This document shows, piece after piece, positions 7,993-31,667 of a DNA stretch of 64,000 nt. The notes below the pieces were generated by a model. It saw only the letters and a list, made by a program, of their open reading frames with translations. It made no database searches and was not told where the DNA came from. A program made the translations under genes and the position numbers. Source of the stretch: Colius striatus. Lineage: Eukaryota; Chordata; Aves; Coliiformes; Coliidae. Location: NCBI RefSeq assembly GCF_028858725.1, contig NC_084769.1, positions 11,223,501 through 11,287,500 on the forward strand. Reading direction: 5' to 3'. Every line of letters begins with the position of its first letter. The stretch's first letter is position 1.

Positions 7993-8050
7993 ATGAGACG
8001 CCGTGTGTTCCTTGTCATGGCGCTCAGCCTGCTGATGGGCTTCATGAAAG
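7993..8050 (+). CDS. MUC13: MUC13 exon 1: start codon and signal peptide
   Basis: It encodes [19 protein letters not shown] plus the first base of a Gly codon: a basic n-region (RRR) and a hydrophobic core, as in an ER signal peptide. The donor is aaag|gtaaga, phase 1. Phase 1 here fits the phase 1-1 mucin exons that follow. Confidence 0.9.
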
Positions 8051-11000: not shown

Positions 11001-14000
11001 AGCCCCAGTTCCCGCAGCCTTTCCTCATAAGGAAGATGCTCCAGTCCCCTGATCACCTTGGTGGCCCTGCACTGGACTCTCTCCAGCACTTCCCTGTCCC
11101 TCTTGAGCTGAGGATCCCAGAACTGGACACAGGACTCCAGATGAGGCCTCACCAGGGCAGTGTAGAGCAGGAGCAGAACCTCCCTTGACCTGCTGGCCAC
11201 ACTCTTCTTGACGCATCCCATCTTGAAGCATTTTTTGTGGATACAGCTGAGGTCAAGGGAAGGATCTGAAGTTGCTGTGAACATGTTAAATGTTATATCT
11301 ATTTAAGCTGAAGATGGATGATGGTAAAAGCACTATTTGTTTAAGAGACCACATGGCAGCAGAAGGTGGCAACAGTGGCACTAGTTGAGACGAGGGATTC
11401 AAAAGGTCACAGACTGGAGTACATGCAACAGTGAATGAAATGCCGTTAACACTGCTCTGGCAGCCAACACTAATGTGGTACTGCTGTCAAGGGGGGAGGG
11501 AGATTTCCTGCAAGGAGATTTCTTGTGTTAGAGATAGACAGCTATACACAATGAGTGAAGCTTGGTTGCATGCAATCCATTGCCCGTGTGGCGCATTGGC
11601 TTACTCCTGGGATCTGGGGAGAAGTGACCATGGGTAAGACAGTCTGCACGGGCAACAGGATTAGAGACAGCCCAAAGGCAGACCCAGACTGTGGCTGCTC
11701 AGCCCCATGCAGGTGCCCCACTGAGCTGCTCTGAGCTTCTGCACACATATAGTGCCCAGAAACTCTTCACACACACAACACTCCCTGATGGGGCTGATTA
11801 CCTGGTAGCTGCTTGGGATCAGAAATCAGACTCTCCCCGCAATCCTCCATGCCCTGCAAAGCCCCCTCTCCCAGTGTGGAGATGGAAACCCCATCCTGGA
11901 GGCTTAAATTACCTACTGAGGTCACCCAGAAAAGGGGAAGCCTGTTAATTTCCTCTCCTCTTCCTCCCTGGTTGGCTTGGATGAGTGTGTTGTTCCTATG
12001 GGCTCCCTACCTTGCCATCGTAGATGCCCATCATCTGGAAAGACCTTCTGTCTTAACCTTTGCCCTGAATGATCCTGGGGGTGAAGGGCAATATGAGGGA
12101 GCAGGAGGTGTGCTGGCTGTAAGCAGTCTGATGCCAACTCTCAATGTGCTCTGGAGCCCTGAGACCTGGGGAGAAGTGTCCATGGGCAAGTCAGTCCGCA
12201 CGGGCATTGGGGTCAGGGAGAGCCCAAAGGCAGGCCAAGGCTGCCCAGGGCTGTGGCTGCTCAGCCCCATGCAGGTGCCCCACTGAGCTGCTCTGAGCTT
12301 CTTCTGCACACACAGTGCCCAGAAACTCTTCCCACACACAACACTAAGCAGTGCCATCATCTGCTTTTTGTTTGGCAGGAAGCACCCCTCAGAGCACTCC
12401 TGCTCCATCCAATACGACAACCCCAAGCACTGCAGGTAAGCAGCAAAACCCCTCCATGTTACCCAGGCCCAGGGAGCCCTGCAGCTGCCACAGGCAGGGC
12501 CGGGTTGTCCTGCCCAGGCTTCCCGGAGTTGCTCTCCAGGAGCAGACAGAGGTGGCCAGATGAAGGCTGTGAAGCCTGTGCACTCTTCCCTCTTTCCCTA
12601 CTGGCCTTTGCTGCAGGAGGAAATTGTTGGGGAAGATTTGAGGGAATGTTCTGTTGCTGCCTTTTACCTTTGCACAGAGGTGTTCTTGGGTTTTCTTGGA
12701 GTATGGTCAGGGAGGGAGTTGGGGCACACACCAGATGGGGCTGATTGCCTGGTAGCTGCTTGGGATCAGAAATCAGACTCTCCCCGCAATCCTCCATGCC
12801 CTGCAAAGCCCCCTCTCCCAGTGTGGAGATGGAAACCCCATCCTGGAGGCTTAAATCACCTACTGAGGTCACCCTGAAAAGGGGAAGCCTGTTCATCTGC
12901 TATTCCCCTCTTCCCTGATGGGCTTGGATGAGTGTGTTTTTCCTATGGGCTCCCAACCTTGCGATCATAGTTTCCCGTCATCTGGAAAGACCTTCTTTCT
13001 CAGCCTTTGCCCTGAATGATCCTGGGGTGAAGGGCAATATGAGGGAGCAGGAGGTGTGCTGGCTGTAAGCAGTCTGATGCCAACTCTCAATGTGCTCTGG
13101 AGCCCTAAGACCTGGGGAGAAGTGTCCATGGGCAAGTCAGTCTGCACGGGCATTGGGGTCAGGGAGAGCCCAAAGGCAGGCCAAGGCTGCCCAGGGCTGT
13201 GGCTGCTCAGCCCCATGCAGGTGCCCCACTGAGCTGCTCTGAGCTTCTGCACACATATAGTGCCCAGAAACTCTTCACACACACAACACTAAGCAGTACC
13301 ATCATCTGCTTTTTGCTCATCAGGAAACATCGCTGAGACAAATCCTGCTCCATCCGATCCGACAACCCTAAGCACTCCAGGTAAGCAGCAAAACCCCTCT
13401 GTGTTACCCAGGCCCAGGGAGCTCTGCAGCTGCCACAGGCAGGGCCAGGTTGTCCTGCCCAGATTCCCTGAGTTGCTCTCCAGGAGCAGACAGAGGTGCC
13501 CAGATGAAGGCTGTGAAGCCTGTGCACTCTTTGATCTTTCCTGCTGACATTTGCAGCAAGGGGAAAGTGTTGGGAAAATTTGAGGAAAAGTACTTTTCCT
13601 GCTTTAATTCTTTCCCTCTGGCCCCAGTCCCGGTGCAAAACTGTCTCTTCAGAAGATCTCCCCAGACCAAGCTTGTTACAGGGTCCAGCAGAGGGATGTT
13701 CGTGGGTTTTATTCCTGTGTGGTGTGGGAGGGAGTCATGGCACACACCAGCATGTGGTTGATTACCAGGCCTGTGGCTGGAGACCATGGAGTAGTGTCTG
13801 CCAAGGATCCTCCATGCTCTGCAAAGCTCTCTGTCCAGCAGTGGAGTTGGGAAATCCCATCCTGGTGCATTAAATCAGCGACAGAGCTCACCCTGAGGAC
13901 AGGAAGCCTGTCCATCCCCTCACCTCCTCCTCACTGATGGGCTTGGATGAGTGTGTTGTTTCTAGAGGCTCCCTACCTTGCCATCATAGATGCCCATCAT

Positions 14001-17000
14001 CTGGAAAGACCTTCTTTTTCAGACTTTGCCCTCAATCATCCTGGGGTGAAGGGCAGTATGAGGGAGCAGAAGGTGTGCTGGCTGTAAGCAGTCTGGTGCC
14101 AACTCTCAATGTTCTCTAGAGCCCTGGAATCTGGGGAGAAGTGTCCATGGACAGGTCAGTGTGCACAGGCGTTGGTGTCAGGGAGAGCCCAAAGGCAGGC
14201 CAAGGCTGCCCAGGGCTGTGGCTGTTCAGCCTCATGCAGGTGTTCCACTGAGCTGCTCTGAGCTTCTCCTGCACACACAGTGCCCAGAAACTCTACCCAC
14301 ACACAACACTAAGCAGTGCCATCATCTGCTTTTTGTTCAGCAGGAACCACCACTCAGAGCACTTCTGTACCATCCGATCCGACAACCCCAAGCACTCCAG
14401 GTAAGCAGCAAAACCCCTCTGTGTTACCCAGGCCCAGGGAGCTCTGCAGCTGCCACAGGCAGGGCCGGGTTGTCCTGCCCAGACTTCCCTGAGTTGCTCT
14501 CCAGGAGCAGACAGAAGTGGCCAGATGAAGGCTGTGAAGCCTGTGCACTCTACCCTCTTTCGCTGCCGGCCTTTGCTGCAGGAGGAAAGTGTTGGGGAAG
14601 ATTTGAGGGGATGTTCTTCTCCTGCCTTTTGCCTTTGCACAGAGGTGTTCTTGGGTTTTCTTGGAGTATGGTCAGGGACTGAGTAGGGGCACACACCAGA
14701 TGGGGCTGATTGCCTGGTAGCTGCTTGGGATCAGAAATCAGACTCTCCCCGCAATCCTCCATGCCCTGCAAAGCCCCCTCTCCCAGTGTGGAGATGGAAA
14801 CCCCATCCTGGAGGCTTAAATTACCTACTGAGGTCACCCAGAAAAGGGGAAGCCTGTTAATTTCCTCTCCTCTTCCTCCCTGGTTGGCTTGGATGAGTGT
14901 GTTGTTCCTATGGGCTCCCTACCTTGCCATCGTAGATGCCCATCATCTGGAAAGACCTTCTGTCTTAACCTTTGCCCTGAATGATCCTGGGGGTGAAGGG
15001 CAATATGAGGGAGCAGGAGGTGTGCTGGCTGTAAGCAGTCTGATGCCAACTCTCAATGTGCTCTGGAGCCCTGAGACCTGGGGAGAAGTGTCCATGGGCA
15101 AGTCAGTCCGCACGGGCATTGGGGTCAGGGAGAGCCCAAAGGCAGGCCAAGGCTGCCCAGGGCTGTGGCTGCTCAGCCCCATGCAGGTGCCCCACTGAGC
15201 TGCTCTGAGCTTCTTCTGCACACACAGTGCCCAGAAACTCTTCCCACACACAACACTAAGCAGTGCCATCATCTGCTTTTTGTTTGGCAGGAAGCACCCC
15301 TCAGAGCACTCCTGCTCCATCCGATACGACAACCCCAAGCACTGCAGGTAAGCAGCAAAACCCCTCCATGTTACCCAGGCCCAGGGAGCTCTGCAGCTGC
15401 CACAGGCAGGGCCGGGTTGTCCTGCCCAGGCTTCCCGGAGTTGCTCTCCAGGAGCAGACAGAGGTGCCCAGATGAAGGCTGTGAAGCCTGTGCACTCTTC
15501 CCTCTTTCCCTACTGGCCTTTGCTGCAGGAGGAAATTGTTGGGGAAGATTTGAGGGAATGTTCTGTTCCTGCCTTTTACCTTTGCACAGAGGTGTTCTTG
15601 GGTTTTCTTGGAGTATGGTCAGGGAGGGAGTTGGGGCACACACCAGATGGGGCTGATTACCTGGTAGCTGCTTGGGATCAGAAATCAGACTCTCCCCGCA
15701 ATCCTCCATGCCCTGCAAAGCCCCCTCTCCCAGTGTGGAGATGGAAACCCCATCCTGGAGGCTTAAATCACCTACTGAGGTCACCCTGAAAAGGGGAAGC
15801 CTGTTCATCTGCTATTCCCCTCTTCCCTGATGGGCTTGGATGAGTGTGTTTTTCCTATGGGCTCCCAACCTTGCGATCATAGTTTCCCGTCATCTGGAAA
15901 GACCTTCTTTCTCAGCCTTTGCCCTGAATGATCCTGGGGTGAAGGGCAATATGAGGGAGCAGGAGGTGTGCTGGCTGTAAGCAGTCTGATGCCAACTCTC
16001 AATGTGCTCTGGAGCCCTGAGACCTGGGGAGAAGTGTCCATGGGCAAGTCAGTCTGCACGGGCATTGGGGTCAGGGAGAGCCCAAAGGCAGGCCAAGGCT
16101 GCCCAGGGCTGTGGCTGCTCAGCCCCACGCAGGTGCCCCACTGAGCTGCTCTGAGCTTCTCCTGCACACACAGTGCCCAGAAACTCTTCCCACACACAAC
16201 ACTAAGCAGTGCCATCATCTGCTTTTTGTTTGGCAGGAAGCACCCCTCAGAGCACTCCTGCTCCATCCGATACGACAACCCCAAGCACTCCAGGTAAGCA
16301 GCAAAACCCCTCCGTGTTACCCAGGCCCAGGGAGCTCTGCAGCTGCCACAGGCAGGGCCGGGTTCTCCTGCCCAGACATCCCTGAGTTTTTCCCTCAGGA
16401 GCAGACAGAGGTGCCCAGATGAAGGCTGTGAAGCCTGTGCACTCTTTAGTCTTTCCTTCTGACATTTGCAGCAAGGGGAAAGTGTTGGGAAAATTTGAGG
16501 AAAAGTACTTTTCCTGCTTTAATTCTTTCCCTCTGGCCCCAGTCCCGGTGCAAGACTGTCTCTGCAGATGATCTCCCCAGACCAAGCTTGTTACAGGGTC
16601 CAGCAGAGAGATGTTATTGGGTTTTATTCCTGTGTGGTGTGGGAGGGAGTCATGGCACACACCAGCATGGGGCTGATTACCAGGCCTGTGGCAGGAGACC
16701 ATGGAGCAGTGTCTGCCAAGGATCCTCCATGCTCTGCAAAGCTCCCTGTCCTTCAGTGGAGCTGGGAAATCCCATCCCGGTGCAAGAAATCACCAACAGA
16801 GCTCACCCTGAGGACAAGAGCCTGTCCATCCCCTCACCTCCTCCTCACTGATGGGCTTGGATGAGTGTGTTGTTTCTAGAGGCTCCCAACCTTGCGATCA
16901 TAGTTGCCCGTCATCTGGAAAGACCTTCTTTCTCAGCCTTTGCCCTGAATGATCCTGGGGGTGAAGGGCAATATGAGGGAGCAGGAGGTGTGCTGGCTGT

Positions 17001-20000
17001 AAGCAGTCTGGTGCCAACTCTCATTGTTCTCTAGAGCCCTGGAATCTGTGGAGAAGTGTCCATGGGCAAGTCAGTCTGCACGGGCATTGGGGTCAGGGAG
17101 AGCCCAAAGGCAGGCCAAGGCTGCCCAGGGCTGTGGCTGTTCAGCCCCACGCAGGTGCCCCACTGAGGTGCTCTGAGCTTCTCCTGCACACACAGTGCCC
17201 AGAAACTCTTCCCACACACAACACTAAGCAGTGCCATCATTTTCTTTTTGTTTAGCAGGAACCACCCCTCAGAGCACTCCTGCTCCATCCAATACGACAA
17301 CCCCAAGCACTGCAGGTAAGCAGCAAAACCCCTCTGTGTTACCCAGGCCCAGGGAGCTCTGCAGCTGCCACAGGCAGGGCCGAGTTCTCCTGCCCAGACA
17401 TCCCTGAGTTTTTCCCTCAGGAGCAGACAGAGGTGGCCAGATGAAGGCTGTGAAGCCTGTGCACTCTTCCCTCTTTCTCTTCTGGCCTTTGCTGCACAGG
17501 GGAAATGTTCGGGAAGATTTGAGGGAAAGTACTTTTCCTGCTTTATTCCTTTGCCACTGGCCCCAGTCTCAGTGCAAGACTGTCCATACAGACGAGGTGA
17601 CCAGGTCAAGCCCATGATGGCGACAAGCAGGAAGATGTTCCTGTTGCTGCTTGGAGTGTGGTGTGGGATTGGGTTGTGGCACACACCAGCGTGGGGCTGA
17701 TTACCAGGCCAGTGGCTGGGGACCATGGAGCAGTGTCTGCCAAGGATCTTCCATGCTCTATAAAACTCCCTGTCCTTCAGTGGAGCTGGGAAATCTTATC
17801 CTGGTGCAATAAATCAGCAGCAGCTCACCCTGAGGACAGGAAGCCTGTCCATCCCCTCACCTCTTCCTCCCTGGTGGGCTTGGATGAGTGTGTTGTTCCT
17901 ACAGGCTCCCTACCTTGCCTTCATTGGTGTCCACCATCTGGAAAGACCTTCTTTCTCAGAATTCCTTCCCTCTTTCCCTGTTGGCACTTTACTGCACAAG
18001 GAAGTGCTGGGGAAGATTTGAGGGACTGCTCCTTTACTGTCTTGTGTCTTTGTCTCTGGCCCCTGTCCCAGTGTAACAGGCTTCCTGCAGATTAGGTGCC
18101 CAAATGCAGCCTGTTACAGGGCCCAGCTAGGAGATGTTCCTGGGTTATCTCGGGGTGTGGGCAGGGAGATACTCAGTGCACACACGGCATGGGGCTGCTT
18201 GCCAGGGCAGTGGCTGGGGTCCATGCACCAGCCTGTACCCTACTTTGCAATCATAGGTGCCCACCATCTGGAAAGACCTTCTGTCTCAGCCTTTGCCCTG
18301 AATGATCCTGGGGGTGAAGAGCAATATGAGGGAGCAGAAGGTGTGTTGGCTGTAAGCAGTCTGGTGCCACCACTCAGTGCTCTCTAAAGCCCTGGGATCT
18401 GGGGTATATGTCATGGGCAAGTCAGTCTGCACAGGCATTGGGGTCAGGGAGAGCCCAAAGGCAGGCCAAGGCTGCCCAGGGCTGTGGCTGTTCAGCCTCA
18501 TGCAGGTGTTCCACTGAGCTGCTCTGAGCTTCTCCTGCACACACAGTGCCCAGAAACTCTTCCCACACACAACACTAAGCAGTGCCATCATCTGCTTTTT
18601 GTTCAGCAGGAACCACCACTCAGAGCACTCCTGCTCCATCCGATACGACAACCCCAAGCACTCCAGGTAAGCAGCAAAACCCCTCCGTGTTACCCAGGCC
18701 CAGGGAGCTCTGCAGCTGCCACAGGCAGGGCCAGGTTGTCCTGCCCAGGCTTCCCGGAGTTGCTCTCCAGGAGCAGACAGAGGTGGCCAGATGAAGGCTG
18801 TGAAGCCTGTGCACTCTTTCCTCTTATGCTGCTGGCCTTTGCTGCAGGAGGAAAGTGTTGGGGAAGATTTGAGGGAATGTTCTGTTCCTGCCTTTTGCCT
18901 TTGCACAGAGGTGTTCTTGGGTTTTCTTGGAGTATGGTCAGGGAGGGAGTTGGGGCACACACCAGATGGGGCTGATTGCCTGGTAGCTGCTTGGGATCAG
19001 AAATCAGACTCTCCCCGCAATCCTCCATGCCCTGCAAAGCCCCCTCTCCCAGTGTGGAGATGGAAACCCCATCCTGGAGGATTAAATCACCTGCTGAGGT
19101 CACCCAAAAAAGGGGAAGCCTGTTAATTTCCTCTCCTCTTCCTCCCTGGTTGGCTTGGATGAGTGTGTTGTTCCTATGGGCTCCCTACCTTGCCATCATA
19201 GGTGCCCATCATCTGGAAAGACCTTCTTTCTCAGCCTTTGCCCTGAATGATCCTGGGGGTGAAGGGCAATATGAGGGAGCAGGAGGTGTGCTGGCTTTAA
19301 GCAGTCTGGTGCCAACTCTCATTGTTCTCTAGAGCCCTGGAATCTGTGGAGAAGTGTCCATGGGCAAGTCAGTCTGCACGGGCATTGGGGTCAGGGAGAG
19401 CCCAAAGGCAGGCCAAGGCTGCCCAGGGCTGTGGCTGCTCAGCCCCACGCAGGTGCCCCACTGAGCTGCTCTGAGCTTCTCCTGCACACAGAGTGCCCAG
19501 AAACTCTTCCCACACACAACACTAAGCAGTGCCATCATCTGCTTTTTTTTTTAGCAGGAAGCACCATTGAGACAACTACTGCTACAACAATTGCAAGCAC
19601 TCCAGGTGAGAAGTGAAAACCCTCAGTTAGCTCTTTCGCCTCATTCAGTGCCTTTTCCTCCTGGCCCAGTCCCAGCATAACAGAGACTCTCTGCAGATGA
19701 GGTGACCACGCCAAGAGTGTTACAGGGCCCAACAATGACATTTTTCTGTGGCTTTTTGGAGCGTGGGCAGGGAGGAAGTCAGGGCACACACTAGCATGGG
19801 GCTGATTACCAGGGATCACTTAGAATCACACAGAACATTGTGGGTTGGAAGGGACCTTTAGAGATCATTTAATCCAATCCCTCTGCTCATGCTAGTTCAC
19901 CTAGATCAGTTCATACATGTACATGTCCAGGTGGGTTTGAAAACCTCCAGAGAATGAGACTCCACACTCTCCCTGGGCAGCCTGGGCCAGGGCTTTGCCA

Positions 20001-23000
20001 TCCTCATAGTGAAATAGTTTTTCCTTATTGCCTCCCTTCTATTCTCCATATCCTGCCATGTCCCCATCCCAGAGTATGTTCCAGACTTAAGAAATGAGCG
20101 TCCCTTAATGCTGTCTGTCCCTTCCTCTGTTTCCTGCTGGTTTTTGCTATGAGGTTAACAGAAAGTGCTATTACTTTCTACTTGGGCTCCCTTATCTCGT
20201 AAATTGAATTTGGCTTTATTACGAGCTCTGGAAGCACTTTTTCTGGATATGAGCCCTCTAATCAATAATACTCTTTAAATAAGAATTTTGTTTTCCTTTT
20301 TGAGGGGGAGAATGAAAGACAGTTCCTTTCTTTTCCCCATTGCATGGTATATCTGTGTCATCTATGAGAAAGCACCTATGGAGTTATGTGAACGAAACCA
20401 GGCAGTTATAAAAGCACCTGTTGGTGATGTTGAGAAATATCTATCTATCTATATATATATATATATACACACAATGTATATTGAAATACATATTTTAATT
20501 ACTTGTATACTCATGTATTTCATATAGGTCTGAAATACATCCTCCAAAATCCTTACAGAATATACAATTGCTTAGAGAAAGTGTAATTGTGCCAGGGAAA
20601 AGTTACTATATGACATTAAGCAAGCAAGACATGCTCTCTAATTGCATGTATACTGTATAATCCCTGGTAGTTTCCTTTAGTAGAAGTATGTCTAAAGTAT
20701 TTAATAGATTATGTACTTTATATATGAAGTCTCCCTTGCAGTTGCACGGAAAGCAATATCTTTTTCATCTTTGTGTCAGGGGGTTTCTGCAGCGGAGACC
20801 CTTGTGGAAGAACATTGGCTACATGTGTTGCTTTATTTAGCAATTTTACCTGCCTCTGCCCATATGGATTCTACTACAGTGAGAAGGATTGTTACAGAGG
20901 TGAGTTGTAGAAAAGCAATCTGTATTTTTAGTTACTTCACAGAAAACTGCTTGGGTGAATTCTTCTTCACATATCCCTTGTTCTCATGTTATAAGTGAAA
21001 ACATAATCAGTCTGGGAAAGCAACTGCTGAATAATGCCTGGCTTCACAGACAGCCACTCCTACAATGACCTAGATAGATATCTCACGAAACAGTGACAGC
21101 CAAGGAGGTTAATGTGCTAGGAAAGGAAGGTGAGTTCTCTGTCAGGGGTGCTGGAGACTCAAATGAGTGAAAAGCAGGATAAAATGCAAGTGTAAACCTG
21201 ACATCGATATTAATGGCTAGGATTTAGAAAGGCCCAAACCCATGAAGACCTCTGAACAGCTGGCTTGATTTTGCCTATTGCTAGACACTCATCACAGTCC
21301 TATTGAAATGCATCTCTGAGATGCTGCTGAAGGTGAAGTGTGTGATTAAATGGGGCTTCTTATTTAAGTGCCAACAAGCAGGATTCTCAAATTTACTTGT
21401 GAGCCTAAGGGAGAAGGTAGACACTGAATTGCTTTCTCAGACCTGGTGAGCCACTTTAGCTGCTCAGTGTCTGCAAATTTAGAGTCTTTAATACAGGTAT
21501 TTTCTCACTAAATGCCATAACACGTTTCATAGGCTGTCCAGTTTACTTGAGCCCAGGATCTTGCCTGCTTCCCAGGTAGCCAGAATACATCCTCCAGTTG
21601 ATTGAGCAAACATTTGATTCATCTCATATATAAAAAACCCCACAGATTGATTTCTGCATTGTATTTCCCCATCTCTGAAGGCTGGGGAACTCTAAGGTGA
21701 AATGTGATTTACTCAAATGCTTTTCAATTAATTAATAAATATTCTCTGTTCTCATTACAGGGAAAATATTCCCTGGAGTCCTTAAGCTTTCACTGGCTTA
21801 CAGTGACGAGGTTCAAATTATAACTTCGGAGCAGTATGAAACAGTGTTCCAAAACGTAACAGCCCTTGTGAGTGACTATGGTTTGGTTTTTTTCCTATGT
21901 ATCTAATGCTATCCTGAGTATCACGCAGATGGGGGGGATATGTACTGCCTTTACTGTGGAGCCTAGAACAGTTTCACTCGAGAAACCTGCTTGTTTCAAA
22001 GAATGTTTCGCACTAGTTGAGACCTATTCACAAGAGACATGAATTTTCCCCTCACACGAGTACAGACATGACTCTTGCTGAAGGGAAGGGATGTACTTGA
22101 AATAAGCAATATCTGCATTTTTAGTGCCACTTGTATTTTGTGAAGTTCTCACATAAATTGTTGGTATCTTTCATTGTTCCCAGTCCAGAAACCATGGGGC
22201 CGAATGCAATTTTCTGACCCATTTAGTTTCTGATTTCCACTCTTTGCTGGGGGCTCAGTAACACTCAGTGGTATGAGTGAAAATGTATAGCTATTTTTTT
22301 TTTAAGGAAAACTGTCATTTCCACCCAGCACAAACTTTTCAGAATGGCTGTCCAGCTGTATCTAAATACCTAAATAATAAGCCTCTTCCATAAGCATATC
22401 AAGATTAGTGTTTTAATGCTATTAGTGAAATGCATGTTACACATTTTTTTGCATTCTGTGATTATTGCTGAAATCTGGTGATAGGTTTCCTGAAGAAATA
22501 AGATCAACAGTTTAATGCATACTTCCACATTGAAACAAGTAAATTTGTTTATGTCATTTTTTGGAAGTAAGGAAGAAGAGATATGCAACTCTGACACACA
22601 GCTGATCAAAAAATATTCACCAACTGTTCAGCAGAATTCATCCAAAGTGGCTATCAAATTCTTTATGTTATTATATTGCTTTCTTCCTGCAAATGTTTTA
22701 TCAGAAAGAAACCAAATATTGTCCCTCCAGAATGTTACATTTTCCTCACTCTTTTTTTTTTGTCCAACATTTTTCATGACATGGCTCCAGAAGTGCATGA
22801 TATGCAGCACCAGAAGAGATTCTTATTAGTATGCAAAAGTGAAAGTAGCATAGAAGATGATTTTTTCTTTATTACAAGGAAAGGAAGTTTATCTTTCATT
22901 TCAATTGACTTGGGCAGCTCATCCTTTTCTCACAGTGCCTCCTGCTTGTGTGGCAGTTGGAGGCAGCCCCCTCCACCTACTGTTCACTGCTTCACACGGG

Positions 23001-26000
23001 ATGAGGGAGACCAGTGACTTCTCTACTGACCCCATCCAACTCCCTGTGATTTTGTCAGGGCTGTGCTTCTCTCCACAAGATCACCCCCCGACGATCCCAC
23101 TTCACTGCATCTTAGTGACATGTGCCCTAAGATGTAAGGATGCCTACTTCTCTCTCTTCCCACTACTTGTACAGCAGAGACAGCTTTCTAAGGGATGAGT
23201 CCACAGGGAGTATCTGCAACTATCCAGCCAGTCAGCCTTAAATTCCTGTTTCTCCATCTCTCCACTGTTCTTCCATATTCCCTGTTCTACAACAACAGCA
23301 CACTGCTCCTCTTCTGCAATACGTGCATGGTGGATGTGACAGATCAGCTTGCTTTATTTGTGCCTGTAGTTGCTTCTTCTGGATTAAAATTTAACAGCTG
23401 AAGCCTCAGTGGTTCGTGTGGCTTTGGCCCATTTTTTCTGCTTGTGTTTAACTACAATTCATTTATCTTTTCTAGTTTAAGGAGATCTTTCCAACATCAA
23501 CAGGCTTTGAACAGACTGTCATTGTGGAAATTCAGTAAGTTTGCTGGTTTGGTTGTTGGACATTGTGTACTGCACACTCCATTTTAATCTGTTTCCCATG
23601 GCGAACTCCATTCAATAAAGGATAAGGGATGAGCTCAGTTCAATTTGCCTCCTGTTAAAGGAAGACATTAACTTTCTGGTTTAAAAGTTTCTGGGATGCT
23701 GGTCCTGTTTTTACCCCATGGATTTCCCAGATGACTGTGAAGTGGCCTGGCTGAGAAGGCTCCACAGTAGATGTCCCACTTTTAGCACCACATAGGGTAT
23801 AGCACAGTGTTGTAACTAGCACTCCTTGTGATACCTGATGTGTCTCTGAAGCTGGAACAGTTACCTCTGAGGTTCCTATGAAAGGGTCCAAGCTTAGTTT
23901 AAGAAACATCCTCATTGCATGTCATTGTGCACTTGCTGGTCTCTCCTGATGGCAGGCTGAGCAAAGATGTTATTGAATGAGCTGTGGTGACTCAGTGGCA
24001 CGGGTCCTTTGCTGATCTAGGCAGATGCTGTAAGATGCTTCTTTTCTCCCATTCTTGTTACAGGCTACTGCCCCTGGAGCTCTGCCAGCTAGTCTGTGAG
24101 TGCTCTCTAGCCCATATCAAGCAAAACCCTGTGTGCTTGCACACACAGAGGGCAAACCCCATGGATCAAGCAGTTAAGCAGGCTGTTGTTCTAGCAGGGT
24201 TGTGAGGGCTGTAGCTTCCAGCAGAGCATTTGTGACAATCAGATGGGGCACAGCAACATCCTAAGGCACCACAGCAGTCTACCACTTAAAAGTATTTGTG
24301 TGCATATCCCAGCAGCACCAAGTTCAGCTGAAGAAAGGGGTAGTCACTGCCGTTCTCCACCTCACCCTAGGGAACTTGCTCTCCAGCTGGACCCAACCCA
24401 GCTAACATGCAGTTAGCTTGCATACCTCTACATTGCAAACAGACCCTTGTGAATTCATTGTGGTCACACTCTCACCAGGCTTCAGATGGGTTTTCCACGT
24501 TGTGCCTGGATGACACTGCAGGCTGATGTGAGCATGTAAAAGTCAGGGTCTAACACGTGAGGTCCTCCACACTGCAGCTAGCTTGAGGTTAGCCCAGTAA
24601 AACGAACCAGTCATGTGCCAACAGCACACAAAGGACTGATATTGTTAGTGTGAAATCCAACAGGCTCTGCTTTCCTGCTGCCTATTTACATCCAGGTCTA
24701 CTGGAAAGATGCCATTAATGTATTCCTAAGCAAGACTTAGGAATACTCACTTTCAGGGGTCTTAGCAACTGCCTACATTGTGGGATGAAAGAAGCCAGGG
24801 AGAGAGGGGGGGTTTGACAGAATTTTTCTTTTGTCCTTGCACCTAGCTAGCTATCCACATGGATTGTGTGAGACTTTAAAACGATGCTATCTGTGCTTTT
24901 CAGATCTCAAACTCAAGCCAGATCTTCTCTTCCGATGAATATAACGGTGATAAATGTGTTTAAGGAGGACACAAATGAAACCAATGTGACAGTTGCTGCT
25001 ACAATAAACAGTGCAAAAGAAAGTATCTCCTACATCGTTGAGTACAATGGTATGTAATTCCCCACCATGTAAGTAAATAAACAGGAGAAACAGATTTTCC
25101 TATCTTCAAAGCTGGCCAGAACACTTCTGTATGCAGCAAAGCCCATTAGAGCATAATCCTTGTTGATTTTAAGGATCTGAATGCTCAACCTTAGGGAGTT
25201 TTGAAGACTTGAACCATTCAATGATGACATATTTCTTTTGGTCTTATTAGGGCTTTCTGTTTTCTTTGTAAAGAAGAGAAGGAAAATGCCCAAGTAAGCA
25301 ATGGCATGTTGATTTTAACCTGCTGGGTGTTAAGTGGCTAGAAAAATGAGGACAAAATATGCACAGATATATATTGTGCTTCTGAGAATAAGCCAGTATT
25401 GTACTGCCAGAACAGGATGAAACTCTCTTTAGACTTCTTACATAATTAACCATGATAATTGAAATGAAGCCTCTCTGATTAGCTACTGAGCTAACTGATT
25501 CATTGGTCTAAACCAGTGAAGTCTTGCATACTGGAAGTGTAATACTTGGAGAACAATTTTCTGAATAAAATATGAGGCTCTTAAACATTTTTTAAAATAT
25601 GCTCCTGTTTTGAAATCCGCTTTTTCAAAAGGCATAGCTAAAAATTAAAGGAGTTTCATGGCTTATAGCCTGAGAGTCTCTGAAGGTGACTCTCTCCACC
25701 TCAGCCATGACATTTCCTGTGTGCTGGTCCTAAATGTGAGTGGGAAATAGAATAGAAATAACTTGAGAAAAATACAATAGAAATAATAGGAAAAAACCCT
25801 GAGAGCTCATGAAACACCAGTGCAATCACATCCCTCAACTGCATGCCACCCACTGAGGTTTGTAAACCATTCCCACCATTGGGACATGGATCTGAGAAGC
25901 AACATGCAAGGTAAACAGCATACTAACATTGGTCATGAAATGCCCATAAATATTTATATCTATGTAGAACTTTATGGGATCTGGGCCTCACAGTTCAGCT

Positions 26001-29000
26001 GTAAAAAAAAAACCTAAGGGAGAAGTGTTGGGGTTTTTCTATAGTATGTTTAAGGTGAATGTTCATGATAAGAACTTGTGGGTAGAATTTCCCTCTTTGT
26101 GGACTAGGGGGGCAGGAAGGTTTGGAGGCAGTTGTAGGAGGCTGAGAAACAAGGTCAGAATGTGATGGAAACAGGAGTTTAACTGGTAAATAGGAAGGGA
26201 AATCAAAGCACTGGTCCAAATGCCTTCAGTATTGATGTCCCCCCCCAAAAAAACAGACTTACAAGGGGTTTTTTTTCAGAATTACTAATTGATTTATGAT
26301 TTACTGAGCAAGTGTGCTGCTTCCTATGAAACGATAATACAAGTACTCAGGCTTGCTTCCTGATTGTTTCTCTTTTAAAGAAACAAGCTACTGTGCTGTT
26401 TATAATTGTGATACCAACACCACAGTCTGCATGGAAGATATGTTTCCAAAATGTGAGTGCAAAAGTGAATACTCCAAGTCAGAATGGGATGATCGTTCTT
26501 GTTCAGGTAAGAACCTTGCTAGTTTATCTATCCCTGAAAGTCTGACCTGGTTATTCCCTGTCTCAGTCCCCTTTTCAAAAGGGCACTGTGTGCCAACCTT
26601 TAAAAATCAGGCATTGCATGTCTTACTAAGAAAGCCACAGGAAAACATTCTCATGTTTAATACATCTATAATACTATCCCAGTACAATTAACTACTAAAG
26701 TTTGAGAAGATTATTGCTGAAACCAGTAAGCAGGTAGCTCTTTGAATGTATTGTTAAACTCTTGGTAAGAATTGAAACCTAAATAGGTATAGAATGGAAT
26801 GAATTGACTCCTATATTCACAGCTCTCTGTGCTAGGACATACTTTGGGAATAATTTCTACACACTACCTGGAAAACTAAATGAAAACTATGAAAACTAAA
26901 GTTCTCACACTGCAGGGAAAAGAAAGTCTAGGATATGAGACTTTAGGAAAGCAAATAAATATTGCAAAGACTCGTAATAAAATCATGAAAGCTTGCTACA
27001 ATAAAGGCCAGTGAGATGGGATCCAGTGTAGGCCTTTGTGCCCCCTAACCTGTCTAAATCTGGTCCAGTTTTAGGTCAGTTGCAGTGCAAATCATCTGCT
27101 CATACTGCAGGTCATTGTTTGCCTGTGTAAGATGCAGCCTGACCAGATTTCCATTCTGGTGAATCTGGATGGTTTTAAGCAAAGATTGTTTTCTTCCAAT
27201 TTTGTGCTTTTGTATTTCAGTTTCTCTTCTACATAGGTGTAGCCCTAAAAAAAAGGGCCATTCAGGTGCTCTGAAGCACAACAAAGCTGTGTACTTTTAC
27301 AGGGCAATAAAGAAAAAAAGGGAGGAGGAGGATTTTCTCCGGTGGTTTTTTGGAGGGCAGGCAGTCTTCAATTCCCTCTGTATTTTTTTTCTCTCTGAAA
27401 ATACAGACTGCAATGCAGAATGTTCTGCAGAAAACCACAAGTACTGTGCAAAACAAGGAGGGGTTCCACAATGCAAATGCATGCCTAACTATGAAAAGAA
27501 GAGTGAAAGATGCGTGCCGTGAGTACTTAGCTTTTTGTTGTGTTCCTGTGTCGTAGGCAAAGATAGGGGAGCAGAGCATCTAACACGGGGTCACTCTCAG
27601 TCTAGAAGAATGGGCTGCAGCTATGTGAATCAGAGAGCTGCCCAAGGTGGTGAGCAGGTGGACAAATTCCCCTGGTGTCACAAGTTATGGCATTTTAACT
27701 GCTTGGCATTAGCTGCTGGTGTGCACTTATAATAGCTCAGAGGCAAGTTGAGGAGATCCAAGGTCGCCTGAGTCAGTGAAGGGGATAAACCACTTCACGC
27801 TTATTTTGTGGGTTGCCCACGTAAACACAAACTATTCCTTCAGTGTAATTGAGCCATGGGAACTGGTGTGCTGAAGTATTGAGTAAGTAATAGGCATTAG
27901 AGCAAGACTTGCCTCAAATCCCTGGAAAGTTTCCACTGCTATCACTGGGGACTTTGTTTCCTGATAACTCTCAGACCTACGTTGTTTCTTCCCGGTTTTC
28001 TCTCTGCGGGTATTTCTGTCAGCTCAGGGTCAGAACAGACCAGTGTTGTTTGATGATGAAGCTGAGTAAGGGACTGGTTGTGCTCTGCCCCTGTGGATGA
28101 GCAGAGACCTTACTCCCCATATCCCTTAATTCAGCTCTTTTTGAAGTTACAGATGCTACGTGCTGAACACTTTTTCCTGCGACACATTTTTACTTTATAT
28201 AAGACATATCTATTTTAAATATAAGAAACTAGTATGGGAGGAAGATAAAGATCAGCCAAGCCTTATAGACCTTACACTGAGGCTTTTGATAAAGACAGAG
28301 AGTAGCAATTCCAAGTGGCTCAGAGGTGTAGGGCTTGGTTCTTTGGAGAAATTGGGCACTTTTAACATTTTTCAGGCTGAGAACCTGTGAGTTTTGAATG
28401 CCCAGCTCAGCAATCAGTCTGAAAATCTCAGTTTATTTTACTCTAATAATGAAACTAAACAATTCAATATTAAGATAGCATTAAAGAGGAAACCTGTAAT
28501 GAACGTACCTTGTGGAGAAATTGCTGATAGGTGGAAATGTACTATTGTTTTGTGATCATCTGCTTAATGACACCATCTTCCTTCCCTTTCTTTCTCCTTT
28601 TTTCTCATGTAGGTGTGGAGTGGGCTACTCTGGGGAGGATTGCATCAACAGTAAGTACACAAATTTGGGATTTTTAATGGTATATAGCATGGAAAAATAC
28701 CCTCCAATGTTTAATCTGCCTCAGATAACAAAATTAATAACTGTTAGTGTCACCATCCTGTATTGATAGCAACAAAATATTAGAAAACAGAAATTCCACT
28801 ATTTCCTGGAAGGAAAAATCCTTCTTGAAACTCATGGTCATTTCTTCTAATGACCTCTGTTTTAAGCCCAGTAATTTTTAGACAAATACAGGTTATTTGA
28901 CAGAAAAGCATTTAGTCCTCAAATAAAGACAAGCAATGCTGAACTCAGCATCACTAATGGACTAGTTTCCCCTGTAATTAATCACTCACTCTATTAAAAT

Positions 29001-31667
29001 GCCAGTGGATTGCTCTCATTTGAAATGTTTCTGTTTTAATAGCCAACCACTGGTTCTTGTTTGTGCTTTACCTTGCAAGCACTGCAGAGTATCTAGTACT
29101 GTAGAGTGATGATGGCCCCGACTGTGTTATCCCATAATTGTAATCATCTGGACAAGCCAACCAGATGAACCTTCCAAGGCTTTTTGGCTTTTCTAAGTCA
29201 GTTTTGCACCTGTTTCCTGTACCTTGTTCAGTTTCCACCATCATATAGATCAGGAGAAGACATTCTTTCACCATGACTTTTCAACTGATGTTTCTTGTTT
29301 TCTTCTTTGTTTTCCAGATAGTGAACTCATCCTTATAATAGTGGGTTCAGTGCTTGGAGCCATTGTCCTGTGTTTATTGATAGCAGTCATTGTTGTTTCA
29401 GCAAGGTAAGAGTATTTCTTACAATTGAATAGAAGCTGAATTTGCTGCATATTCATAGAGAGCTAAGCAGAATTTTAGAGGGGCAGAGCTGCAAATGTTG
29501 TTGCATGCCCAGTTGGGCAGACAAGTCCGTAGCCATTAGGATTTGTTTTTGCCTGTGTGCCTTCACAGAAATATTTATTCTCTTGCTACAAATTCAACTG
29601 TGATATCTTCAGATAAGTCTTAAAAAAAACACACCTGGCCCTTTAATCCTAGTCCTGCCCTAGCCATAAGTGCTATGGCATCAGAATGAGACTGAAGAAT
29701 GATGCTGATACCAGAAGGCTGTGTGGTCTAAATTCAGACCCTCTGTGGTCTGAAGTGTTAGCTCCTGCTAACACTTCAGCTCAAGGCCTGGCATGCCTCT
29801 TTCTGTCTGTGTGTGATGTACAGACTTTTGGTTACAATTTAATGCATCATTTGAGTGTCCAGCTTTGGCTACAGACACAAGGGTAACTCACACGAGGACA
29901 ACTTTTCTTAACTGGGCCTGATGAATGCTTCCTTTCTTCCACTGAAAAGTCAGAGCTAGTAGTGGTTAAGGAAGCTCCTTCACTCTAGGAACCAGTTGAA
30001 AGAGGCCAAAGTTCTCCTCTGTCTCTCTTAGCAGCTTAGCCCCATCTGTGATAAGAGATGCCAAGCTTTGTACTCTATCACTGATAACAGGGATTAGCAA
30101 CAGGTATGATAGAAAAATCTGTTGCAGGTTTCAGAACAGAACTGAGCACTCCAAGTAAGGTGAGACTGGACAACTCAATAAACTGGAGTTAATAAGTAAG
30201 GCATACTAAAATGTCTTTTAAAACATCCTTTCTTCTTTCTTTTCTCTCAAGAGCCAAACACAGAAAAGATCCAGAGAGAAAGAGCCTGATAAAGTCAGGA
30301 TATTCCAACTCAAATGCCTCTGATGATAAACCTGCCACGATGTTCCCCCGAGTGCAGACCACTTCTGGCCACTCAAACCCAGGATATCAGCCCAACAACC
30401 CATATGAGATGCCTTCCTCAAACAGAGATCGTTTTCCAGAGAGAGATTATGATGATTTGGTAAGTGCTTCACACACACAAGGCCTACTTGCATTCCTCAA
30501 ATACAGCATTGTTGCCTACAGACATTGTGGGAACCTAAACTCCACTCTGTTTATCCTCCTTTAATCTAAAAGGCTAAAGGGGGTATAAAGACAACTACAC
30601 AACTGTAGCTACAGCTGAAAAGGATTCAGTTTTCACAGAGATCAGCACTCATGAAGACCTTTCTAAAGACCCAGTAGTCATCCTTGAGTCACAGGAGGGA
30701 TACATGAAAAGCAAGGGCCAAAGCAGCAGTGTGGGTGCATTGAGCAACCACCTCCCTCAGGACAGGCACATGGGCAAACACCACGGGCTGCTACAACCTG
30801 AGCTGCTTTTAGGCTGGCTGTTCAGGCTGCCAGATTGCCAGTCACCTTAAGCTAGCACAGCTGCCCAGAGGATTGATGTCCTCCCAGCTGCTCTGCTACC
30901 GCCAGCTTCAGAGCAAGGGCCTCAGCAGCTGTTGCGGTGGGCCAAAGTGTCAAATGCCAAGGGCAGGCTGGCAGAGCTTTTGCACTGATGGAGCCTCAGG
31001 GAGCCTCAGCAGCTGAGGCCTGTCGTTAGCTGGAAGGTGTGTTGTGAAGAAAGATTAATGCCTGTTTTATCCTTGAACTCTGTGAGGCAGCTGCGGAGGG
31101 AGCAGGGGCTTGAGAAATGCCCCGCTGTGGTGTGATTGATTTGCTGGATCTGCAAGCATCGAGGAAATAGAAAGCATATTTTCTGACAGAGATCACTTTA
31201 GCTCCACCACTGTGGTGCAAGAAGCTACCCCTGTCTAGTGAAGAAAACCTGTTTAACTGTATACATGTATCTGTTTTGCAGAACTGAGGCCTAAACCTTG
31301 ATAGAAGAAACCCGATGTTTAAAAAAATCCAAACCCCGCTGCTTTTAAAAAGCTGCCATTTTAAAGAAGACAAACATCTCTTTAGTTAGTTGGTTGATAA
31401 GGTTCACATGGTTTTGGGCATTTCTAACTTTCCAAAGATGTCAACCTTTCACTGGTGAAAATCTGCCTGTCTGGTTTTCCTTGCGGGCTGGTGTGTCACA
31501 GGGAGAGGGCTATTATATGTGGTGTGCAGGCTGAACTGTTCTCAGAAAGGTGCTTTCTGTTCCACAGCTATTCTTTATATCTTCTCTTTTCTTTCTTTTC
31601 TTGTCCAACTTCTCTGTAGTACGAAATATCACGGGAGCCTGAGGGCTTTAGGATGAGGAGATACTAA
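7993..31667 (+). CDS. MUC13: MUC13-like transmembrane mucin, whole gene from start to stop codon (18 exons)
   Basis: Cell-surface mucin of epithelia. I assembled 18 exons by GT-AG signals and reading phase; they sum to 1557 nt, that is 518 residues plus stop, close to the roughly 510 residues of mammalian MUC13. Domain order by residue: signal peptide 1-20; Ser/Thr/Pro-rich repeats 20-168; EGF-like 169-208; SEA 209-312; EGF-like 313-354; EGF-like with an extra Cys pair 355-404; transmembrane helix about 407-432; cytoplasmic tail 433-518. EGF-SEA-EGF-EGF-TM is the MUC13 arrangement. The next gene downstream on the same strand is ITGB5, as in other vertebrates. The start has a good context (gcggccATGa) directly before a signal peptide, although the frame stays open upstream to at least 7702. 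HEG1 is the main alternative, but its extracellular region lacks this compact arrangement and its place is upstream. Extra exons in the 4.3-kb first intron cannot be excluded. Confidence 0.93.
10627..11285 (-). mobile_element. CR1 LINE with open C-terminal reverse-transcriptase reading frame
   Basis: A 5'-truncated copy in MUC13 intron 1. The reverse strand keeps a 191-codon open frame (10709-11284) with the CR1 C-terminal signature [19 protein letters not shown] and [16 protein letters not shown]. The element ends with the CR1 octamer repeats near 10627-10650. The intact frame suggests a relatively young copy, but it lacks the catalytic RT part and endonuclease. Confidence 0.93.
11600..11786 (+). 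pseudogene. Partial array unit whose mucin exon is missing
   Basis: The sequence matches the stretch that precedes each exon (ctggggagaagtg, agagacagcccaaaggcag, cagccccatgcaggtgcccc, cacatatagtgcccagaaac). Immediately after acacacaacact it jumps to the unit's later part (gatggggctgatt). The acceptor, exon and donor are deleted, leaving a dead unit at the array edge. Confidence 0.7.
11786..13240 (+). repeat. Higher-order duplicate block, copy 1
   Basis: It repeats almost unchanged at about 14698-16153, an offset of 2912 bp. Long identical runs, including the exon 1/exon 4 pair and its flanking introns, show that a three-unit block was duplicated or converted recently. Similarity drops at about 13245, where this copy has the cacacatatag variant. 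Confidence 0.8.
12379..12435 (+). CDS. MUC13: MUC13 mucin-repeat exon 1 of 8
   Basis: A 57-bp phase 1-1 exon with acceptor tttggcag and donor gtaagc. With the split Gly it encodes [19 protein letters not shown], rich in O-glycosylation targets. The Asn-Thr-Thr is an N-glycosylation sequon found only in this copy and copy 6. It is preceded by 11786-12378, which is nearly identical to 14698-15290. Confidence 0.85.
13324..13380 (+). CDS. MUC13: MUC13 mucin-repeat exon 2 of 8 (most diverged 57-bp copy)
   Basis: A 57-bp phase 1-1 exon with acceptor gctcatcag and donor gtaagc. It encodes [19 protein letters not shown]. It keeps the Pro-Ala-Pro-Ser core but has lost several Thr/Ser sites at its N-terminal side. 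It is followed by the longer B-type intron (963 bp). Confidence 0.8.
14344..14400 (+). CDS. MUC13: MUC13 mucin-repeat exon 3 of 8
   Basis: A 57-bp phase 1-1 exon encoding [19 protein letters not shown]. The acceptor is a NAGNAG tandem (ttcagcag), so using the upstream AG would add one Ala. The donor is gtaagc. An A-type intron of 890 bp follows. Confidence 0.84.
14698..16153 (+). repeat. Higher-order duplicate block, copy 2
   Basis: Partner of 11786-13240 at an offset of 2912 bp. It contains mucin exon 4 and the intron leading to exon 5. Only scattered single-base differences from copy 1 were noticed by eye. Confidence 0.8.
15291..15347 (+). CDS. MUC13: MUC13 mucin-repeat exon 4 of 8
   Basis: A 57-bp phase 1-1 exon encoding [19 protein letters not shown]. 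It differs from exon copy 1 by one base (Asn to Asp), which removes the N-glycosylation sequon. Acceptor tttggcag, donor gtaagc. It lies 2912 bp after copy 1 inside the higher-order duplication. Confidence 0.85.
16237..16293 (+). CDS. MUC13: MUC13 mucin-repeat exon 5 of 8
   Basis: A 57-bp phase 1-1 exon encoding [19 protein letters not shown]. Acceptor tttggcag, donor gtaagc. It is followed by a B-type intron (965 bp) that resembles the one after copy 2. Confidence 0.85.
17259..17315 (+). CDS. MUC13: MUC13 mucin-repeat exon 6 of 8
   Basis: A 57-bp phase 1-1 exon encoding [19 protein letters not shown]. It carries the Asn-Thr-Thr sequon shared with copy 1. The acceptor tttagcag is a NAGNAG type; the donor is gtaagc. 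It is followed by the longest intron in the array (1294 bp). Confidence 0.84.
18610..18666 (+). CDS. MUC13: MUC13 mucin-repeat exon 7 of 8
   Basis: A 57-bp phase 1-1 exon encoding [19 protein letters not shown]. The acceptor ttcagcag is a NAGNAG type; the donor is gtaagc. An A-type intron of 891 bp follows. Confidence 0.85.
19558..19605 (+). CDS. MUC13: MUC13 mucin-repeat exon 8 of 8 (short terminal copy)
   Basis: A 48-bp phase 1-1 exon encoding [16 protein letters not shown]. It is three codons shorter than the others and has lost the Pro-Ala-Pro-Ser core. The acceptor follows a long T run (tttttttagcag) and the donor is gtgaga rather than gtaagc. It looks like the oldest or least homogenised member, at the array edge. 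Confidence 0.8.
19822..20060 (-). mobile_element. CR1 LINE, 5'-truncated, at the right edge of the mucin array
   Basis: Starts agaatcacacagaacattgt and continues with ggttggaagggacctttagagatcat, the reverse complement of the CR1 3' end. It interrupts the last array unit directly after the gctgattaccaggg segment. Confidence 0.88.
20437..20468. repeat. (CTAT)n/(TA)n microsatellite in a MUC13 intron
   Basis: The run ctatctatctatatatatatatatatacacac lies in the intron between the last mucin exon and the first EGF exon. Confidence 0.85.
20780..20899 (+). CDS. MUC13: MUC13 exon 10: first EGF-like domain
   Basis: A 120-bp phase 1-1 exon of 40 codons. Six cysteines lie in EGF-like order (FC, PC, TC, TC, LC, DC), with an aromatic/Gly stretch PYGFYY before the last. 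The acceptor is tttgtgtcag and the donor gtgagt. MUC13 has one EGF-like domain before the SEA domain, which this matches. It is easily missed because the alternative frames look open across it. Confidence 0.86.
21761..21867 (+). CDS. MUC13: MUC13 exon 11: SEA domain, part 1
   Basis: 107 bp, phase 1 in and phase 0 out, acceptor ctcattacag, donor gtgagt. It begins [14 protein letters not shown] and continues with [12 protein letters not shown], a typical start of a SEA fold, with an NVT N-glycosylation sequon. Confidence 0.88.
23476..23534 (+). CDS. MUC13: MUC13 exon 12: SEA domain, part 2
   Basis: 59 bp, phase 0 in and 2 out, acceptor ttttctag, donor gtaagt. It encodes [19 protein letters not shown]. 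In self-cleaving SEA domains the GSVVV-type cleavage loop falls at this place; here the residues read QTVIV. Confidence 0.87.
24904..25049 (+). CDS. MUC13: MUC13 exon 13: SEA domain, part 3
   Basis: 146 bp, phase 2 in and 1 out, acceptor gcttttcag, donor gtatgt. It encodes the last SEA strands and helix, including [12 protein letters not shown] and [10 protein letters not shown]-glycosylation sequons NIT, NET and NVT are visible. Confidence 0.88.
26381..26506 (+). CDS. MUC13: MUC13 exon 14: second EGF-like domain
   Basis: A 126-bp phase 1-1 exon of 42 codons, acceptor tcttttaaag, donor gtaaga. Six cysteines in EGF spacing (YC, NC, VC, KCEC, SC). It lies directly after the SEA domain. Confidence 0.88.
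27407..27518 (+). CDS. MUC13: MUC13 exon 15: third EGF-like domain, part 1
   Basis: 112 bp, phase 1 in and 2 out, acceptor aaatacag, donor gtgagt. Six cysteines (DC, EC, YC, QCKC, RC). The domain continues into the next small exon, which adds two more cysteines. Confidence 0.87.
28613..28650 (+). CDS. MUC13: MUC13 exon 16: third EGF-like domain, end (38-bp microexon)
   Basis: 38 bp, phase 2 in and 1 out, acceptor tctcatgtag, donor gtaagt. It encodes [12 protein letters not shown], a typical EGF C-terminal loop (G-x-G-Y-x-G-x-x-C). The phase fits on both sides. Confidence 0.86.
29318..29405 (+). CDS. MUC13: MUC13 exon 17: transmembrane helix
   Basis: 88 bp, phase 1 in and 2 out, acceptor tgttttccag, donor gtaaga. 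It encodes NSEL followed by about 25 hydrophobic residues ([20 protein letters not shown] core) and then SAR, a single-pass helix with a basic stop-transfer at the start of the next exon (RAKHRK). Confidence 0.92.
30252..30459 (+). CDS. MUC13: MUC13 exon 18: cytoplasmic tail
   Basis: 208 bp, phase 2 in and 0 out, acceptor tctctcaag, donor gtaagt. It starts with a basic juxtamembrane segment ([11 protein letters not shown]) and then a Ser/Asn/Pro-rich tail with tyrosines in GYQP, NPYEM and RDYDDL contexts that could be phosphorylated. It is hydrophilic with no catalytic domain. Confidence 0.9.
31620..31667 (+). CDS. MUC13: MUC13 last coding exon, with stop codon
   Basis: Acceptor ttctctgtag. 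It encodes [15 protein letters not shown] and a TAA stop. The join to the previous exon creates DDLYEIS, a plausible tyrosine phosphorylation site. The tail ends in a basic RMRRY. Confidence 0.87.
   Translation, partial: YEISREPEGFRMRRY

Follow-up and report, generated by a model that had tools for sequence, protein, structure and literature searches.

A 64,000-nucleotide stretch of the genome of the bird Colius striatus (RefSeq assembly GCF_028858725.1, contig NC_084769.1, positions 11,223,501 to 11,287,500 of the forward strand; hereafter the window, whose own coordinates are used unless a contig is named) very probably contains MUC13, a gene for a mucin of the gut surface, and we are highly confident that the mucin domain of this gene is encoded by eight mini-exons that were multiplied at the DNA level, through tandem duplication of an exon together with its intron. 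The array occupies positions 11600 to 19821 on the plus strand and consists of direct repeats of an exon-intron unit of about 945 to 1020 bp, with a single spacing of 1351 bp. Seven mini-exons measure 57 bp and the last measures 48 bp, and each of the eight has an upstream AG border, a downstream GT border, and phase 1-1, in agreement with a preliminary description of this DNA made from the sequence.

Layout of the mini-exon array

The components of the array, all on the plus strand, are as follows.

11606..12378, plus strand: truncated unit 0, a repeat without an exon (self-comparison and junction sequence)
12379..12435, plus strand: mini-exon 1, 57 bp, 19 amino acids (border and phase scan)
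13324..13380, plus strand: mini-exon 2, 57 bp, 19 amino acids (border and phase scan)
14344..14400, plus strand: mini-exon 3, 57 bp, 19 amino acids; CAGCAG acceptor, 60 bp with the upstream CAG
15291..15347, plus strand: mini-exon 4, 57 bp, 19 amino acids (border and phase scan)
16237..16293, plus strand: mini-exon 5, 57 bp, 19 amino acids (border and phase scan)
17259..17315, plus strand: mini-exon 6, 57 bp, 19 amino acids; acceptor TAGCAG (border and phase scan)
17316..18609, plus strand: long intron 6, 1294 bp, two fused units (self-comparison and junction sequences)
18610..18666, plus strand: mini-exon 7, 57 bp, 19 amino acids; acceptor CAGCAG (border and phase scan)
19558..19605, plus strand: mini-exon 8, 48 bp, 16 amino acids; acceptor TAGCAG (border and phase scan)

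From mini-exon 1 to mini-exon 8, starts are spaced by 945, 1020, 947, 946, 1022, 1351, and 948 bp, leaving introns of 888, 963, 890, 889, 965, 1294, and 891 bp; the window contains no N. All eight mini-exons are open in the reading frame that leads into an EGF-like exon at 20780. Taken alone, this openness is weak evidence, because the two other frames are also open, in seven and six of the eight mini-exons, respectively; the same cannot be said of composition. When joined, the mini-exons encode a domain rich in proline, threonine, and serine (PTS domain) of 149 residues, 107 of which (72%) are serine (26), threonine (51), or proline (30), and each mini-exon would represent one glycosylation repeat of this domain.

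Self-comparison of positions 11600 to 19821, a check that the preliminary description had proposed, reveals a direct periodicity of roughly 1 kb in the form of 39 direct matches, each 150 bp or longer. Because no such match occurs in any of 50 dinucleotide shuffles or in any of six other 8.2-kb stretches of the window, a chance origin of the array is excluded. Tandem Repeats Finder returned no entry at the array because the longest period that this tool considers is 500 bp. The self-matches span exon as well as intron, bearing out the claim that the PTS repeats are exon-intron units and not parts of one repetitive exon. The accompanying claim, that every exon sits in its own unit of about 1 kb, holds for most exons and needs three corrections: unit 0 has no exon, the 1351-bp unit is two fused units, and mini-exon 8 lacks a full unit, since what it has in common with the others is the flank on its upstream side and some scattered parts of the mid-intron, and not the full downstream intron.

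Duplication, exchange, and loss of units

Ten units can be traced in the array, eight of which have an exon. Their intron lengths define a short-intron kind (units 1, 3, 4, and 7, which are 94 to 98% alike) and a long-intron kind (units 2 and 5, 94% alike); units 2 and 5, as well as units 1, 4, and 7, are spaced three units apart, and unit 3 is also of the short-intron kind. The best of the long self-matches pairs positions 11784 to 14638 with 14696 to 17554 (2860 columns, 95.7% identity), which shows that a three-unit block of 2.9 kb was duplicated once.

Differences are unevenly distributed over this match: columns 1 to 1350 contain 8 mismatches, whereas the other 1510 columns contain 108. 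Because divergence thereby steps from 0.6% in the 1.35-kb part to about 7% in the rest, near position 13134, the pattern is consistent with a subsequent exchange of roughly 1.35 kb between the copies, by gene conversion or unequal crossing-over, that took in mini-exons 1 and 4.

Such a block, 99.4% identical over 1350 columns, is also the sort of stretch that assemblers mishandle, and the array might accordingly be viewed as an artefact in which collapsed or duplicated haplotypes gave rise to extra units. We consider this very unlikely: divergence among units 1 to 7 is 2 to 16%, their introns differ in length and show deletions private to individual units, the chicken Muc13 gene is reported to share the layout (PMC1552070), and no second array elsewhere in the assembly appears among the matches listed.

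Exons have also been lost. Positions 11606 to 11782 of unit 0 match the stretch just upstream of mini-exon 1, and from 11784 onward the unit matches sequence that begins about 350 bp beyond that exon's first base; because pre-exon sequence thus abuts sequence some 350 bp past the exon start, the acceptor, exon, and donor of unit 0 were evidently deleted. Similarly, in intron 6 a pre-exon part is joined to a post-exon part at about 17959/17965, with a second, smaller deletion near 18231/18238, and this intron, responsible for the 1351-bp spacing, consists of two fused units, one exon of which was lost by deletion.

These junctions and alignments indicate that an exon plus its intron was multiplied by tandem DNA duplication, at least once as the three-unit block of 2.9 kb, followed by the exchange of about 1.35 kb and accompanied by at least two exon losses by deletion. 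The earlier proposal that units are gained and lost in the genome is thus matched by traces of duplication, exchange, and deletion in the array itself. Because every mini-exon is phase 1-1 and has a length divisible by three, gaining or losing a unit would leave the frame intact and affect nothing but how long the O-glycosylated rod is, and that length could drift or be selected.

Distribution of the unit in the genome

When one unit was matched against the genome, at least 18 matches were listed (the method skips very common words, and its counts are lower bounds): the array accounts for 16 of them, and the other 2 fall in a single fragment on another contig. The latter fragment (C7:8004573-8005039, minus strand, 467 bp) contains a mini-exon with its flanks, is 78 to 81% identical to units 1 to 7, and adjoins an abundant interspersed repeat that we take to be CR1-like. 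Its mini-exon is open by eye (GNITETTNGTFNSTTSSAP), with a start resembling that of mini-exon 2 and a weaker-looking donor, CAA/GTAAAC. Because the matches listed for the C-terminal part of MUC13 include none at this place, the fragment is most likely dead.

The presence of this fragment beside an abundant CR1-like repeat is what would be seen if the unit were a dispersed or satellite element with an exon-like motif, an explanation to which we give next to no credence, given that 16 of the 18 listed matches lie in the array and only 2 in one fragment elsewhere, that Rfam returned no match for the window, and that the mini-exons share the reading phase of the adjoining MUC13 exons. We rejected this explanation, along with that of an assembly artefact, on the basis of unit divergence, private deletions, and the distribution of genome matches.

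Separately, two retrotransposon fragments that are presumably also CR1-like flank the array in the same orientation, at 10624-11220 and 19821-20028; they are 77 to 79% alike over two 92-bp stretches, and their placement is possibly coincidental.

Sequence variation among units

Across units 1 to 7, the exon is, if anything, more variable than its near flanks: 14 of 57 exon sites vary, versus 74 of 480 flanking sites (300 bp before and 180 bp after the exon; p = 0.09), and two narrower flank ranges give 27/200 (p = 0.06) and 40/300 (p = 0.04). Along the unit, mean pairwise differences are 0.096 within the exon and 0.023 over the 57 bp that directly follow; they amount to 0.04 to 0.08 over the roughly 200 bp ahead of the following exon and reach as much as 0.21 in mid-intron, where divergence exceeds that of the exon partly because introns of the short and long kinds are being compared. 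Among codons with a single difference, pairwise counts (which are not independent) amount to 91 nonsynonymous and 0 synonymous, with 12 more pairs showing two differences. Counted by site, the excess is not significant: 2 of 14 sites are possibly synonymous where 28% would be expected (P = 0.20), and P becomes 0.02 when the two double-change codons are left out afterwards; these selection tests are limited by exchange among units and by the small number of sites.

Because all counted single-difference codon pairs are nonsynonymous and variability in the exon equals or exceeds that in the adjacent intron, one might regard the mini-exons as the fast-changing cargo of a self-renewing array, in which duplication and exchange supply new units, deletion removes exons, and selection diversifies the exon. 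If so, the length and glycosylation pattern of bird MUC13 would be tuned through entire exon units, with gut microbes as a possible target. We find this account improbable: it is weighed against by an exon difference (0.096) lower than that in mid-intron (up to 0.21), and diversifying selection on the mini-exons is possible and unproven. A mucin rod would be expected to look like this, with weak constraint on the sequence and conservation of frame and composition.

Splicing of the mini-exons

All eight mini-exons are frame-neutral, as originally claimed, and skipping any subset of them would likewise shorten the rod in RNA while remaining in frame. The donor CAG/GTAAGC is identical in all seven 57-bp mini-exons. 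NAGNAG acceptors are present in half of the mini-exons (3, 6, 7, and 8, at 14338-14343, 17253-17258, 18604-18609, and 19552-19557, respectively), and use of the upstream site could add three bases, corresponding to one alanine codon. The upstream sites give exons of 60 bp (or 51 bp); chicken repeats are reported as 20 amino acids long (PMC1552070).

Constitutive inclusion of most or all eight mini-exons is the default expectation, and regulated skipping is possible. Under the latter, the array would be a regulated splicing cassette: cells would select the number of mini-exons included, and MUC13 rods of different lengths would be made in the same individual, in the manner of CD46 and its Ser/Thr/Pro exons. 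Frame neutrality of all eight mini-exons and the four NAGNAG acceptors speak for such a cassette, as do the suggestion of splicing control made for chicken by Lang et al. (PMC1552070) and the precedent of CD46, whose isoforms are reported to arise via splicing at exons 7 to 9 (PMC5064401). The uniform, strong-looking donor of the 57-bp exons fits constitutive use instead, and we treat the cassette as a tentative and rather doubtful alternative to an array expanded in the genome and included largely whole. The inverted repeats in the array are short: of 35 pairs, the 25 longest reach no more than 26 nt (at 73%) or 18 nt (at 100%), so a model based on RNA pairing was set aside.

Identity of the gene and its surroundings

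The exons assigned to MUC13 outside the array, also on the plus strand, are listed below; exon 1 is the one candidate left upstream of the array after filtering for an ATG, a hydrophobic stretch, and a phase 1 donor.

7993..8050, plus strand: probable exon 1, with start codon, signal peptide, and phase 1 donor AAG/GTAAGA (predicted)
20780..20899, plus strand: EGF-like exon, phase 1-1 (weak EGF matches, E 0.05, 0.054, and 0.044)
21761..21867, plus strand: first exon of the SEA domain (weak Pfam SEA match on joined exons)
23476..23534, plus strand: middle exon of the SEA domain, phase 0 to 2 (open frame; borders by eye)
24904..25049, plus strand: last exon of the SEA domain, phase 2 to 1 (SEA match; borders by eye)
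26371..26520, plus strand: cysteine-rich exon, EGF-like by eye (match extent, not exact borders)
27403..27531, plus strand: second cysteine-rich exon, EGF-like by eye (match extent)
29317..29418, plus strand: transmembrane exon, with a 28-letter helix by eye (match extent)
30244..30459, plus strand: cytoplasmic-tail exon (match extent)

The downstream exons thus follow the order EGF-like, SEA (three exons), two cysteine-rich, transmembrane, and tail, and all seven matches listed for a C-terminal MUC13 query against the 1.21-Gb assembly are at this locus. We assign the gene to MUC13 because it is flanked by HEG1 and an integrin-beta gene, has a weak SEA match, and possesses EGF-like, transmembrane, and tail exons in order, which makes the identification offered in the preliminary description very probably correct.

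HEG1 lies upstream on the same (plus) strand and can be traced from a 487-codon S/T/P-rich open frame at C13:11199799 to C13:11220897, and its C-terminus ends about 10.6 kb ahead of exon 1. Of its 26 C-terminal residues, 24 are identical to a solved HEG homolog 1 peptide (3u7d, E 3e-12), and of its EGF exons, one scores above the Pfam cut-off and one is weak. That HEG1 adjoins with the same polarity is characteristic of a MUC13-type neighbourhood: HEG and Muc13 are reported to be adjacent with the same polarity in chicken, with the same arrangement in human and mouse (Lang et al., PMC1552070). Downstream, also on the plus strand, an integrin-beta gene has four family matches, the first at about 61065, and extends past the end of the window (C13:11284565-11296069). 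Among solved structures it is matched best by beta-3 chains, and the 59 chains listed include none of beta-5. In mammals, the integrin beta-5 gene lies near MUC13, and the Colius gene may be its counterpart. At 55698-55869, the window also holds a (TTCCTT) hexamer array of 28.7 copies with a 100% match.

Several points weigh against our reading of the gene and its array. The Pfam SEA match on the three joined exons (18.1 bits, E 0.003, 88 residues) falls below the cut-off of 26.4 bits; without the middle SEA exon, which was picked out by eye from the open frames, the joined C-terminal query gave no SEA match. The first EGF-like exon scores 14.7 bits versus a Pfam cut-off of 29.3, the two downstream cysteine-rich exons have no Pfam EGF match, an NCBIfam search with the SEA stretch gave no match, and a Pfam scan of six downstream open frames returned no mucin domain. 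Searches of solved structures with MUC13 pieces produced nothing significant (best E 0.054 and 1.1). Both exon 1 and the splice borders are predicted, and no final coding exon carrying a stop codon was identified. Within the array, the near-identical 1.35-kb block could be partly an assembly error, and the exon shows no purifying selection relative to its near flanks, such that single-exon function is not shown by conservation.

Comparison with known systems

In most mucins, length varies through repeats contained in a single exon. Where each repeat is an exon of its own, the length of the mucin can change in the germ line and, in principle, also through splicing in an individual animal. Both this multi-exon mucin layout and the proposed routes to length variation are already known, as a kind and for avian MUC13: Lang, Hansson and Samuelsson (2006, PMC1552070) described the mucin domain of chicken Muc13 as multiple exons with one repeat unit each, counted at least 12 repeats of 20 amino acids around an assembly gap, cited the expressed sequence tag AJ452523 as support, and proposed length variation via recombination and splicing. 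Among other papers, the multi-exon result appears just as the cited title of the 2006 paper in the parts covered of PMC4136736, PMC6027344, and PMC8521165, and a multi-exon Muc13 domain is not treated in those of PMC3056801; we found no later account of the evolution of avian MUC13 units in the parts of the open-licence literature covered.

Like chicken Muc13 as reported, the Colius gene has several near-identical, frame-neutral PTS exons that each encode one repeat, and a HEG neighbour of the same polarity. It differs in having eight exons of 19 or 16 amino acids in a gapless array, versus at least 12 repeats of 20 amino acids plus a gap. Exon-with-intron duplication, block exchange, and lost exons are not described in the parts covered of the chicken account (PMC1552070).

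The same paper contrasts this layout with single-exon PTS domains, including that of human MUC13, which is an orthologue of chicken Muc13 and yet has its PTS domain in a single large exon, and mentions a zebrafish Muc13 homologue (unpublished there) that is described as split into several exons (PMC1552070). The adjacent Colius HEG1 resembles MUC13 in combining an S/T/P-rich stretch with an EGF domain on the same strand and differs in that its stretch is one long open frame of 487 codons instead of mini-exons. CD46 exons 7 to 9 are small and encode an O-glycosylated Ser/Thr/Pro stretch. CD46 is a membrane glycoprotein encoded by an unrelated gene, and it is for CD46 that alternative splicing of these exons is reported as shown (PMC5064401). 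To these systems, the Colius locus adds a gapless array bearing the marks of unit duplication, exchange, and loss, which makes the evolutionary half of the 2006 principle directly testable between individuals and among bird species.

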